Shown piece after piece: positions 9,958-48,154 of a stretch of 49,026 bases of DNA (position 1 is the stretch's first letter; each line of letters begins with the position of its first letter). Both the position numbers and the translations under genes were made by a program. The notes beneath the pieces were generated by a model. That model was not told the origin of the DNA. It saw only the letters and a program-made list of their open reading frames with translations, and searched no databases. The DNA comes from Mediterranea sp. (in: CFB group bacteria). Lineage in GTDB: Bacteria; Bacteroidota; Bacteroidia; Bacteroidales; Bacteroidaceae. The stretch lies in NCBI GenBank assembly GCA_031262385.1, contig JAISHU010000104.1:1-49026 (forward strand), given 5' to 3'.

Positions 9958-10019
9958 TTCTTTAATAGTTGTCGGATAATATCCTGTTTACGCATCAAAA
10001 TGTCACAATATTGCGCTTT

Positions 10020-10500
10020 CTGCTAACTCGTACTTTGCAAAAAAAGAGTGCTCAGCCGGAAGACAACGCACTCCGAAGCCGTAGCCAATTCGTTGCAAAC
10101 GCGAAAACAACGAATCAACTCGGCGGAAACAACGAATCATCCGCACGAAAACAACGAACTGTCGGCACGAAAACAACGAATCAACTGCCGGCTTAGCAAA
10201 TTATCCCGGCAAGTTAAGCTGTATTTCCCGGCAAATTATTGTGTTATCCCGGCAAGTTATCACGCTAACTTGCCGGGATAATTTCATAAAGTTCTTTTTG
10301 AGGCTGTTTTTTCGCGCTGAAGGCGCTTTTTGTTTCTTGACATAATTTCTTCATATCTTTCTGTAAGTATGCGGATTAAATAGCGTATTTTACATAGTTT
10401 AACGCGCTATACTCGCACGAAAGTCACCAAGCCGTCCCTTAGTCCGAAATAAGCCCGTTTTTCGAGGGTTCGTTTGACGTTTTGACACTTTGTCAATGGA
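10020..10500 (-). repeat. Locus A: intergenic mosaic repeat element (22-bp periodic) in the same family as locus B, inverted
   Basis: aacaacgaa at 10106, 10128, 10150, 10172 (exact 22-bp spacing). cccggcaa at 10205, 10227, 10248 plus an inverted copy at ~10269. 10455-10487 and 10394-10409 are inverse matches to locus B. Confidence 0.9.
10244..10281. repeat. Perfect 16-bp inverted repeat (hairpin) within locus A
   Basis: TTATCCCGGCAAGTTA – TCACGC – TAACTTGCCGGGATAA. Confidence 0.95.
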
Positions 10501-26041: not shown

Positions 26042-26058
26042 TCCCTCTCTTGTCATTT

Positions 26059-26460
26059 TGTCAAAACGTCAAACGAACCCCTCGAAAAACGGCTGTTTTA
26101 CGGACTGAAGTACGGCTCGTGACTTCCGATGCCCGTGTAGCGCGTTAAACTATCTAAAAAATAGGGCTTAATGTGCACTCATCCAGAACGATAAGCTCCA
26201 AAAATCTTTGCGAAGAAAAAGCGTGCTCAGCGCGAAAAAAAGTCCCCGAAAAGAACATTCCGAAATTATCTTGCCGAGTTAGCGCGATAACTTGCCGAGA
26301 TAAATCAACAATTTGCCGAGACAGACAGCTTAACGTGCCGGGAAAAATAGTTTTCCCGGCAGCCGGTTCGTCATCTCCGTGTAGTTGATTCGTTGTTTTC
26401 GCGCAAACAGTTTGTTATTTCCGTGCAAACAGTTTGTTGTTTCCGCGCAAACAATGCATT
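26059..26460 (+). repeat. Locus B: intergenic mosaic repeat element (21-22-bp periodic), inverted homologue of locus A
   Basis: NTTGCCGAG-type cores at 26270, 26291, 26312, 26334; second-module units at 26364, 26386, 26408, 26430, 26452 (exact 22-bp spacing); TGTCAAAACGTCAAACGAACCCCTCGAAAAACGG at 26059-26092 and TAGCGCGTTAAACTAT at 26138-26153 match locus A reverse complement. Confidence 0.9.
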
Positions 26461-26604
26461 AAAAACGGGGCAAGAGCAGATTGCCTCCGTTTAAAGAGCG
26501 ATTTTCCACAAAGTGACGGTTAGGGAAAAAGGCAAAAAGACGACAGATTGATAGGATGAGGCGAGAAATAGTTTCTTTTTAAAAAAACACATCCCTCCCC
26601 GCCT

Positions 26605-30146: not shown

Positions 30147-32067
30147 TCCTCCCAACAGAAAGAAACAAGAGAGAGGCACCGCCTCTCTGCGCCGGCTACC
30201 AATGCTTATCGCTCTTGTAGTCGTGGTCTACTCGTGCGCCAGTGTAGGGCGGCTCGAAGGCGGACCCGTTGACGAGATGCCGCCGCGCTTTCTTTCGTCC
30301 ACCCCGTCGCCCAACGCACTGAACAACACCCGCCCCCGCATCTCCATACTCTTCGATGAATATATCAAATTGGACAAGCCGGGCGAAAAGGTTATTATAT
30401 CGCCCCCGCAAGTGATACAGCCCGACGTAAAAGCTTCCGGCAAACGCGTGGTTGTAGAACTGAAAGATTCGCTGAGACCCAACACCACTTACACCATCGA
30501 CTTTGGCGATGCCATTCAAGACAACAACGAAGGCAACCCGCTGGGCGACTTCAGCTTTGTGTTTTCGACCGGCGCGGTGATAGACTCCATGGTGATTTCG
30601 GGCACGGTGCTCAATGCGGCAAACCTCGAACCGGTAAAAGGCATTCAAGTGGGATTGTATGCCGACTTGTCGGATACCGCCTTTACCACCAAACCGCTGG
30701 AGCGTGCCGGACGTACCGACAGCCGGGGACGTTACAGCATCCGAGGAGTGGCACCGGGCAAGTATCGCATCTTTGCCTTGCAGGATGCCGACCGCAACTA
30801 TCACTTCAACCAGCCGGTGGAAGTGATTGCGTTCTACGACAGCTTAATCATCCCTTCCATGGAAGAGCGCATGCGCATGGACACCGTGTGGAAAGACACC
30901 ATTACCATAGATACCGTCATCGCGCGGAAGTACACACACTACCTGCCCGACGACCTCTTGCTGCGCACCTTCAAAGAACATGTATCCTCGCAACGGCTGG
31001 CACGCAGCGAACGCCCCGAAGCACATAAGTTCTCGCTCTACTTCACCGCCCCTGCCGACACCCTGCCGCTGCTGAAAGGGCTGAACTTCGATGCCGACAA
31101 TGCCTTTGTGGTGGAAAAGCCCACCGGACGCATCGATACCCTCACCTATTGGATAAAAGACTCGCTGATATATAAGATAGATACGCTGAAGATGAGTTTG
31201 GAATACCTCTATACCGACTCGCTGAAGCAGTTGGTGCCCCGCACCGACACCTTGAAACTCGCCTCGCGTGCCAGACCCAAAGCTTCGCAGGAGAAAGATA
31301 AAAACAAGAAAAAGAAAAAAGGCGAAGAGGCTGCCGACTCCATCCCGAAGATAGAGTTTCTGACAATGGACGTGTACGCACCGGCAACCATGGATATATA
31401 CGACTACCTCAGTCTGTCGTTTCAAGAGCCGATAGCTTGGTTCGACAGCGCCGGCATCCGACTGGAACACAAGGTAGATAGCCTTTGGGAAGCAATGCCC
31501 TACCGGTTTGCGAAAGATTCCATCGACATCAAACGATACAACCTGCTGGCGGACTGGGGTGCCGGACAGAGCTACGCCTTCACGGTCGACTCAACGGCAT
31601 TCCACGGATTGTACGGCTTGTTTACGGCACCCGTCCGCAAAGAGTTTGCCATAAAAAAACTCGATGAGTACGGACAAATATTCTTCAACATCGAAGGCGC
31701 CGAATCCACGGCGTTCGTCGAACTGCTCGACGGCAGCGACAAAGTGGTTCGCACAGTGCCGGTAACGAGTGGCAAAGCCGATTTCTATTTCCTCAATCCG
31801 GGAAAGTACGGCGCACGATTAATTATAGACACAAACAAAAACGGAGTATGGGACACGGGCAATTATGCGAACAAAATACAGCCCGAAATGGTTTACTATT
31901 ATACACAAGTGCTGGAGTTGAAAGCAAACTTCGACTTAACGCAGGATTGGAACCTTACCGCCCAACCGTTGGATAAGCAAAAGCCCGATGAACTTAAAAA
32001 ACAAAAACCCGATGAAGACAACAAAAAGAGAAAGCAAAACAACCGGAATAGCAGCAACCGGCGCTAA
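30139..32067 (+). CDS. Ig-like (Big_5) domain lipoprotein
   Basis: CASVGRLEGGPVDEMPPRFLSSTPSPNALNNTRPRISILFDEYIKLD…PNTTYTIDFGDAIQDNNEGNPLGDFSFVFSTG. Confidence 0.85.
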   Translation: MNNPPNRKKQERGTASLRRLPMLIALVVVVYSCASVGRLEGGPVDEMPPRFLSSTPSPNALNNTRPRISILFDEYIKLDKPGEKVIISPPQVIQPDVKASGKRVVVELKDSLRPNTTYTIDFGDAIQDNNEGNPLGDFSFVFSTGAVIDSMVISGTVLNAANLEPVKGIQVGLYADLSDTAFTTKPLERAGRTDSRGRYSIRGVAPGKYRIFALQDADRNYHFNQPVEVIAFYDSLIIPSMEERMRMDTVWKDTITIDTVIARKYTHYLPDDLLLRTFKEHVSSQRLARSERPEAHKFSLYFTAPADTLPLLKGLNFDADNAFVVEKPTGRIDTLTYWIKDSLIYKIDTLKMSLEYLYTDSLKQLVPRTDTLKLASRARPKASQEKDKNKKKKKGEEAADSIPKIEFLTMDVYAPATMDIYDYLSLSFQEPIAWFDSAGIRLEHKVDSLWEAMPYRFAKDSIDIKRYNLLADWGAGQSYAFTVDSTAFHGLYGLFTAPVRKEFAIKKLDEYGQIFFNIEGAESTAFVELLDGSDKVVRTVPVTSGKADFYFLNPGKYGARLIIDTNKNGVWDTGNYANKIQPEMVYYYTQVLELKANFDLTQDWNLTAQPLDKQKPDELKKQKPDEDNKKRKQNNRNSSNRR

Positions 32068-32890
32068 ACGCATCTCCCGTATCATTCTTCTTTTAACCGC
32101 ACTCCTGCTGGCTGTGCCCACTGCCCATGCGCAGTGCACGGCAATGAACGAAGCCTTTCAGTCCGGCGAAAAGGTGGGCTACGACCTCTATTTCAACAAA
32201 TCGTTTATTTGGGTGAAGGTGGGATATGCCAGCTTGGCAACCACCTCAACGACGTTCGACAACCGGGCTGCCTACCGCATGGACATGTTGAGTGTCAGCA
32301 GCAAGGCGGTCGATATCTTTTTTAAGATGCGCGATACCCTGACCTGCTACGTCAGCCAAGAGTTGGAGCCGCTCTACTTCCGCAAAGGTGCTGAAGAGGG
32401 CAAACGATATACCATCGACGAAGCATGGTTTAACTACACCGACGGAGTGTCGCACATCAAACAGCGGCGCACATGGCCTCGCGGCGAACGTGCCGTTGAA
32501 GAGATGGAGTACAGCGACAGCCGTTGCATCTTCGACATGCTGAGCATTCTCGCACAAGCCCGCTCGTACGACCCCACCCACTACACCGTGGGACAACGCA
32601 TCTTGTTCCCCATGGCAACTGGTCGGCGGGTGGAAGAGCAAACCCTGATTTATCGCGGTAAACAAAACATCGACGCCAACGACGGCATCACCTACCGTTG
32701 CTTAGTATTCTCGTTTGTGGAATACGACAAAAAAGGTAAAGAGAAAGAGGTTATCACCTTCTTTGTGTCCGACGACAAGAATCATCTCCCTATCCGCCTC
32801 GACCTCTACCTCAACTTCGGCGCCGCAAAAGCCTTCCTGAAAAATGTCACAGGCATGCGTCATCCCATGACGGCGATGGTAAAAGAGTGA
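32012..32890 (+). CDS. DUF3108 domain protein
   Basis: AFQSGEKVGYDLYFNKSFIWVKVGYASLAT…TYRCLVFSFVEYDKKGKEKEVITFFVSDDKNHLPIRLDLYLNFGAAKAFL. Confidence 0.83.
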   Translation: MKTTKRESKTTGIAATGAKRISRIILLLTALLLAVPTAHAQCTAMNEAFQSGEKVGYDLYFNKSFIWVKVGYASLATTSTTFDNRAAYRMDMLSVSSKAVDIFFKMRDTLTCYVSQELEPLYFRKGAEEGKRYTIDEAWFNYTDGVSHIKQRRTWPRGERAVEEMEYSDSRCIFDMLSILAQARSYDPTHYTVGQRILFPMATGRRVEEQTLIYRGKQNIDANDGITYRCLVFSFVEYDKKGKEKEVITFFVSDDKNHLPIRLDLYLNFGAAKAFLKNVTGMRHPMTAMVKE

Positions 32891-32920: not shown

Positions 32921-33102
32921 TTAACTCGGCAAGTTAACACGCTATATCGGTAGTTTATAGCGATTATTCCGGCAAGTTATTTTATTATCTCAGTGATTCA
33001 CGTTTGTCAAACAAGTGATTCACGTTCGCCAAACAGGTGATTCACAAATGCCAAACAGGTGATTCACAAACGTCAAACAAGGAGTTGCCGCAATGAAACA
33101 CT
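32921..33102 (+). repeat. Locus C: 22-bp periodic intergenic repeat between convergent genes
   Basis: gtgattca at 32993, 33015, 33037, 33059 (exact 22 bp) with degenerate unit at 33081; ggcaagtta-type cores at 32928, 32949, 32971. Confidence 0.92.
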
Positions 33103-33106
33103 TCTT

Positions 33107-33856
33107 CTACAAAATGCCCAGCCGCAATGCCACCGCAATACCCTCGTGTATGTTGGAAACGTGCAGCTTTTGATGTAACAATTTACGTTTGCACCCTTTT
33201 ATCGTACTCATCGAAACCTTTAGCATACATGCGATGTCGGCGTTGAGATAACCTTGCGCCGTCAGTCGCAGAATCTTTTTTTCGCGAATCGTAAGCCGAT
33301 GATAACGAATCGTCTCCCACTTACCCATGCCGGTACGTACATAGCGCGTCAACCGTTCCATATCCCATATAGATGCCGTATGTGTTACCGGAAACAAGGA
33401 GTGCGAAACCGTACACACGCCCACATGTGTCTCGGAGGCATGATTTTCCCACAACGGGTAGCAGCAGATGCTTATCCAATGGCTCTCTCCGCACCTGTTT
33501 TCGATAGGAAGCGTCAGTTCGGCGTGGCAGTTTTGCTGCCCATAGAGATTCAGATCACTGTACTTGATTAAGGTATCTTTGTAAGCGAGTTAGGCGGAGA
33601 GGAGATCTTTCCTGTGCAACACTCTTTTGAAGAACATAAAACCCTCGCGCATCATTTGTTCGGGCAGATGCTTACCCAACGCCAAGTTGTGCGGCATTAC
33701 ATGCACTACACTCTCCTTCGAGATATCTACCAGCAACAGCGCATGGTTTTGAGTATGGAGGGGAGCATCGGACAACACTCGGTAAGCTTTTAATAAATTG
33801 GTGTCTATCATGGATGGTAGGTGTATAATTAAGATTGTGGCAAACATACAAAACAA
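33107..33856 (-). pseudogene. LuxR-type HTH regulator interrupted by a single in-frame TAA
   Basis: ORFs 33856-33590 and 33454-33107 are in the same frame; reading through TAA (33590-33592) gives …HRKDLLSA*LAYKDTLIKYSDLNLYGQQNCHAELTLPIENRCGESHWISICCYPLWENHASETHVG…LTIREKKILRLTAQGYLNADIACMLKVSMSTIKGCKRKLLHQKL. Confidence 0.82.
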
Positions 33857-34029
33857 AAAAGTATTCCGCCAAATCTCCTTAACAAATAAAACAACTTACG
33901 CAATGGCAAAAAATGGAAAAATAGCGACTTATTATACTTAAGATACCCCCATTTTATTTGCACTCGGACAAGCAAGCCGCTATATTTGCTGCGACAATCT
34001 TATTGTCTAATAATTCAATTAATACAAGT

Positions 34030-47615: not shown

Positions 47616-47826
47616 AAAACAATCTTCCTAATTTATTCGGAAGCTGTTTTGAATTTAGTGCTTGTTTCGTCCTGATTTTGGTTGACCGTAGTATCTCAAT
47701 CTTTTCCTCAAGCAAAGAGAAGGTGCACGCTAAAGGTGTGATGGACGCGTGATAAGCTGTTTTATAACTTTTCTTTCTTACATCCTTATCTTTACAGCTT
47801 ATTTTATTGTCTTTGCACCGCACATT

Positions 47827-47924
47827 CTTTACCGTCCGACCAACGTCGTACGAGCGTCCGACGATGGTTGTACGACCGTACGACGTTGGTCGGACGCTCG
47901 TACGACGTTGGTCGGACGGTAAAG
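47827..47924. repeat. Locus D: four tandem 22-bp units forming a perfect 36-bp-arm inverted repeat
   Basis: Units start at 47833, 47855, 47877, 47899; arms 47827-47862 and 47889-47924 (CTTTACCGTCCGACCAACGTCGTACGAGCGTCCGAC and its exact reverse complement). Confidence 0.95.
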
Positions 47925-48154
47925 GAAGTGCAGTATAAAAATAATATATTACTGATACATAATTATTTATCAGTAAATAACAACTACTAAACAATTCACT
48001 GCCTCCGGTAAGTTTCTTAGCATCTCCGCAGAAGACAGGCAGCTATCTGACAAGTAAAAGAGAAAGATAAGACCGAAAAGAGACTCGGGAGCATGAGTAA
48101 TAAAAATTATATCAATAAAATCAAAACGGTTTCTAATAATCTTCGAAAAAGATA

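Follow-up and report, generated by a model that had tools for sequence, protein, structure and literature searches.

BrickBuilt of Porphyromonas gingivalis is a MITE/minisatellite that is intergenic, multi-copy and species-restricted. It consists of head-to-tail 23-nt units of one repeat family, and its leader and tail carry terminal inverted repeats of IS5-like type (PMC4596501). In the same paper, 22-nt tandem direct repeats are mentioned for P. gingivalis W83 (PMC4596501). The VNTRs TR5 (22 bp, 10 units) and TR1 (23 bp, AACATCCGGATGTT + 9 bp) of Bacteroides fragilis are non-coding and vary among isolates (PMC7585543). The tandem repeats of gut Bacteroides intergenic DNA have hitherto served as typing markers. 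REP/BIME sequences are dispersed intergenic palindromes that are mobilised by Y1 transposases and lack a 22-bp phased head-to-tail arrangement, and the iterons of plasmid origins are helically phased direct repeats of about 20-22 bp.

This work analyses a stretch of 49,026 nucleotides from Mediterranea sp. (contig JAISHU010000104.1 of assembly GCA_031262385.1), referred to as the window, in which locus C carries tandem repeats of a family labeled F3. BrickBuilt is the nearest described repeat to F3: both occur in Bacteroidales and are intergenic, multi-copy, restricted in distribution and arranged head-to-tail, with a unit of 21/22 bp in F3 versus 23 nt in BrickBuilt. They differ in that a common leader or tail is lacking in most F3 arrays and that the F3 units are strongly diverged. 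Locus C is among those with neither a common leader nor a common tail, whereas four other F3 copies share a leader and a tail in which inverted ends are not evident. TR5 and TR1 are also non-coding Bacteroides repeats with 22/23-bp units, TR1 including a perfect palindrome of 14 bp, and are probably members of one broad class with F3; however, their sequences differ from F3, and they were reported as typing markers only and not as a dispersed, phased class. Dispersed intergenic palindromes are common to F3 and REP/BIME, with only F3 being 22-bp phased and head-to-tail. F3 resembles iterons in its helical phasing but occupies at least 18 loci and has no adjacent Rep gene: no replication initiator gene was found beside the arrays, where a DUF3108 gene, LuxR-type genes and diverse housekeeping genes are located. 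A published description of a class of 22-bp phased arrays was not found in the open-access literature.

We tentatively read locus C as a phased array of palindromic candidate protein-binding sites that would spread as a non-coding repeat. If a genus-wide 22-bp step with species-specific palindromes holds true, such arrays would form a class that is open to testing, with a geometry suggestive of a binding protein. The predicted protein, if real, may help to organise the chromosome of dominant gut bacteria; if there is no such protein, the 22-bp period itself needs a mutational explanation.

Array anatomy at locus C

The positions of the GTGATTCAC and GGCAAGTTA-type cores in the initial annotation were all correct, as was their spacing of 21-22 bp, and the array comprises eight in-register units with steps of 21, 22, 22, 22, 22, 22 and 22 bp (Table 1). 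This periodicity is far beyond chance: at lag 22, the best stretch matches itself at 57 of 66 positions, while 500 dinucleotide shuffles of the same intergenic DNA gave at most 32 over lags 20-24. The F2 core AACTCGGCAAGTT and the F3 core AACTCAGTGAGTT have the arms AACT...AGTT in common and F2 also stands in the F3 register; the earlier view of one 22-bp scaffold with differing cores is supported. Locus C indeed lies between convergent genes, with the qualification that the right-hand LuxR/GerE-type frame is interrupted by a stop and is probably a pseudogene or a draft-sequence error. No similarity of locus C to phages was found, and the single Rfam match in the whole window was a tRNA, with none to the arrays.

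Table 1 Features of the window (positions in the window; cores with the position of their first base)
Feature	Position	Strand	Remarks
Locus A, copy of the 514-bp dispersed element with F1 and F2 arrays	9984..10497	-	Ends approximate
Locus B, diverged copy of the same 514-bp element as locus A	26050..26555	+	Ends approximate
Left flanking gene of locus C, DUF3108 protein	31988..32890	+	
Three F2-type units in phase with the F3 array	32928..32992	+	GGCAAGTTA 32928; GGTAGTTTA 32949 (degenerate copy); GGCAAGTTA 32971
F3 array of four 22-bp units, GTGATTCAC + 13 bp	32993..33080	+	GTGATTCAC 32993, 33015, 33037, 33059
Degenerate in-phase final unit	33081..33089	+	GGAGTTGCC 33081
Right flanking LuxR/GerE-type reading frame of locus C	33107..33895	-	In-frame stop at 33590-33592
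F4, near-perfect inverted repeat of ~90 bp on a 22-bp unit (CGACCAACGTCG + 10 bp)	47825..47925	.	

The F3 family in the source genome

The source genome is a 2.6-Mb draft (84% complete) in which the window is contig 135. Pattern and profile searches for tandem arrays of this motif in stretches of this genome detected at least 18 intergenic F3 arrays with 90 units altogether, these counts being minimum numbers. Arrays contain 2-8 units. In the whole genome, the two-unit pattern gave 13 matches and a looser pattern 22, against 0 for the reversed-pattern control of the former and 0 for the control of the latter. Each unit consists of a 12-13-bp imperfect palindrome, of the type AATCA-NN-TGATT or AACTCA-S-TGAGTT, in which the left half is often the asymmetric AAACA, and a spacer of 9-10 bp that varies. 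The palindrome centres are 21 or 22 bp apart, which is about two turns of B-DNA. Among 72 steps between units, 56 measured 22 bp and 16 measured 21 bp; steps of 20, 23 and 24 bp, which the search also permitted, did not occur despite heavy substitution. The 21-bp steps coincide with AACTCA-S-TGAGTT junctions, and the 22-bp steps with AATCA-NN-TGATT or AAACA-NN-TGATT.

The units had been described as near-palindromes, as expected for dimeric sites. At locus C itself the palindromes are imperfect, with less symmetric AAACA halves, but across the family the half-sites covary over the unit junction and not inside the unit. AACTCA is located opposite 8 of the 9 TGAGTT halves with a classed partner (Fisher p = 1.9e-6), and junction position 5 is complementary at a rate of 0.78 versus 0.59 after shuffling (0 of 500 shuffles as high), the half-site p-values being optimistic since the F3 units are mutually related. 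Pairing within units is 0.56 versus 0.53 shuffled, without covariation. Part of the covariation may reflect shared ancestry, the units being copied from one another.

All 15 F3 arrays with genes called on both sides (by a simple script) are intergenic, in DNA that is 91% coding. Six are flanked by divergent, six by tandem and only three by convergent genes, so the convergent placement noted at first is no rule. Their neighbours are diverse (rplU, dnaB, gcvH, tyrS, phoH, tig and others); no common theme and no visible regulon emerged among them. LuxR genes adjoin only locus C and one other array (L032), and a link to these genes was dismissed as coincidence.

Phased operators are palindromic sites at a fixed, whole-turn spacing, and the 56 and 16 steps of 22 and 21 bp together with the matched half-sites agree with this architecture. 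A dimeric, sequence-specific DNA-binding protein would occupy each palindrome, and the fixed step would align all dimers on one helix face and so permit cooperative binding. Whole units would be gained or lost, arrays would be copied as parts of dispersed non-coding repeats, and the step would be retained genus-wide through shared geometry while the site sequence turns over. Such a bound array could serve in nucleoid organisation, silencing, insulation or merely in repeat maintenance. Against bound sites speak the neighbours without a theme, the presence of non-palindromic 22-bp units (F1) and the folding of several arrays as RNA.

This folding brings up the alternative that the arrays act as RNA, being transcribed from neighbouring genes and folding into hairpin rows by which the transcripts would be stabilised, terminated or processed. 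On either strand, the folding of several F3 arrays exceeds that of dinucleotide shuffles (z down to -8), and F4 folds as a near-perfect long hairpin (z -12 versus dinucleotide shuffles); locus C, however, folds weakly (z about -2) and the array at L024 not at all. The covarying junction palindrome would leave an unsuitable loop of 1-2 nt, whereas the internal hairpin frame shows no covariation, and this junction covariation favours action as DNA over action as RNA. The arrays have neither an Rfam match nor a preferred orientation to genes, and no convincing compensatory helices emerged when 53 copies of the 514-bp element were analysed with RNAalifold and by mutual information. We therefore consider action as RNA distinctly unlikely.

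The 22-bp period across the genus

Tandem Repeats Finder was run on 1.4 Mb of pooled same-genus DNA and non-redundant arrays were counted. Thirty arrays had a period of 22, versus 4, 8, 5 and 4 with periods of 20, 21, 23 and 24; with small samples per genome, this peak describes the pooled sample and not every species, and 80 kb sampled from one genome (G013) contained no 22-bp array. The period-22 arrays have mostly unrelated sequences. Significant palindromes were present in 43% of the 22-bp units versus 8% of the arrays of other periods, a signal that depends on the measure, being weak with a circular score of consensus units and clearer with an arm-length score. No period-22 peak was seen in pooled DNA of other Bacteroidales families (0.33 Mb) or in E. 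coli K-12 (0.15 Mb). In 500 kb of genome G021, none of the eight arrays of 21-23 bp was located inside called genes. At several other same-genus loci (among them L143, L146 and L140), tandem repeats with multiples of 7 bp (7, 14 bp) were observed, which are nearly lacking in the source genome.

That related species favour a 22-base step with mostly unrelated sequences hints at a spacing rule. An array unique to the species had initially been named as a sign of random repeat growth. The F3 sequence does come close to this, but related species have the same architecture with other sequences, and this speaks against a repeat that grew at random in one species only. A broader proposal, which we regard as doubtful, is a satellite-like system of the Bacteroides group. 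In it, different species would keep the 22-bp monomer length, even at one shared intergenic position, as the monomer sequence changes. The reason would be a conserved DNA-binding machinery of architectural type that requires palindromes two turns apart and whose specificity co-evolves and differs from species to species.

Relatives of locus C and the minisatellite alternative

Of 148 other same-genus genomes, one (G519) contained the F3 pattern, and the pattern was absent from all 392 genomes searched across the order Bacteroidales; judged from these searches, the F3 sequence appears nearly private to the source species. The array of G519 has eight units with steps of 21 or 22 bp, and its leader and tail are common to three arrays of the source genome (L004, L032 and L076). 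These four copies from two species differ mainly by missing whole units, with the register kept. The shared element is 89% identical between both genomes over ~200 bp, versus 71% for coding DNA at the orthologous DUF3108 region; this difference points to either interspecies transfer or strong constraint. The DUF3108 protein itself has 67% identity to that of G519 and 59% to that of Mediterranea sp. isolate Hm464_bin97. In G519, the gap behind the orthologous DUF3108 gene (L215, 2580-2954) is without F3 and contains three unrelated arrays in a row, TACTTCTACTCGG... (22 bp), TCTCCAACCCTTGGAGAGATCT (22 bp) and ATGTAAGCCACCCTTACATGGTA (23 bp), two of which have clear palindromes. The corresponding gap in L093 has no array.

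Several of these results also fit a functionless intergenic minisatellite or MITE-like repeat that is shaped by slippage, unequal recombination and gene conversion, in which 22 bp would reflect the copying mechanism and not selection. The near-private F3 sequence, the absence of common neighbours and of an orientation bias, and the difference between copies by whole units are consistent with it, and the 89% versus 71% identity is as for a mobile repeat that moved between species. TR5 (22 bp) and TR1 (23 bp), both non-coding, vary in copy number among B. fragilis isolates (PMC7585543), and the loop flips at small palindromes described below point in the same direction. Generic slippage, however, predicts neither one period across species with unrelated sequences nor the lack of 20, 23 and 24-bp steps among diverged units. 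On balance, phased binding sites are the most likely reading of locus C and a functionless minisatellite is nearly as likely.

The 514-bp dispersed element and F4

Loci A, B and C had been grouped as sister loci, yet A and B each represent a copy of a single long dispersed element. The likeness drawn between the locus C spacers and TTTCGCGCAAACA of locus B did not hold either, as the latter is an oddity of one B copy and the 53-copy consensus reads CGCGTCGACAG. The 53 near-complete copies aligned have a mean pairwise identity of 86% and depart from the consensus by 2602 substitutions and 12 insertion/deletion events. The length of the element is far better preserved than its sequence, which is odd for dead repeats. 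Unlike BrickBuilt, it has no general terminal inverted repeats, strongly inverted flanks being present in 1 of 52 copies. A search of 60 other genomes from the same genus and order gave no match to the element, and it showed no similarity to plasmids.

Mobilisation of REP/BIME-type palindromes by a Y1 (RAYT) transposase would also yield dispersed, intergenic, palindromic repeats. Nevertheless, no Y1 transposase (PF01797) match was found in the source genome (draft, 84% complete) or in G021, G026, G016, G020 and G027, all of which have 22-bp arrays, and head-to-tail 22-bp phasing is not part of REP anatomy, which makes this origin very improbable.

At consensus positions 221-226 of the 514-bp element, the core reads TGCCG in 30 copies and, inverted, CGGCA in the other 23 of the 53. 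The flip is located between short AACT/AGTT arms, which suggests a hairpin-mediated rearrangement (hairpin-loop microinversion). Similar GTTT/AAAC flips occur in F3 spacers.

The F4 core has 134 matches genome-wide at ≤ 2 mismatches, and L093 contains, at a place that does not correspond, a 22-bp array of the related core CGACCTACGTCG. Many copies of the 514-bp element have a short frame MSKNKKRVQREKTAPKRTL at consensus positions ~155-215, with GAGGAAATT-ATG as its start context; read on the opposite strand, this stretch looks like a terminator, with a hairpin and a run of T.
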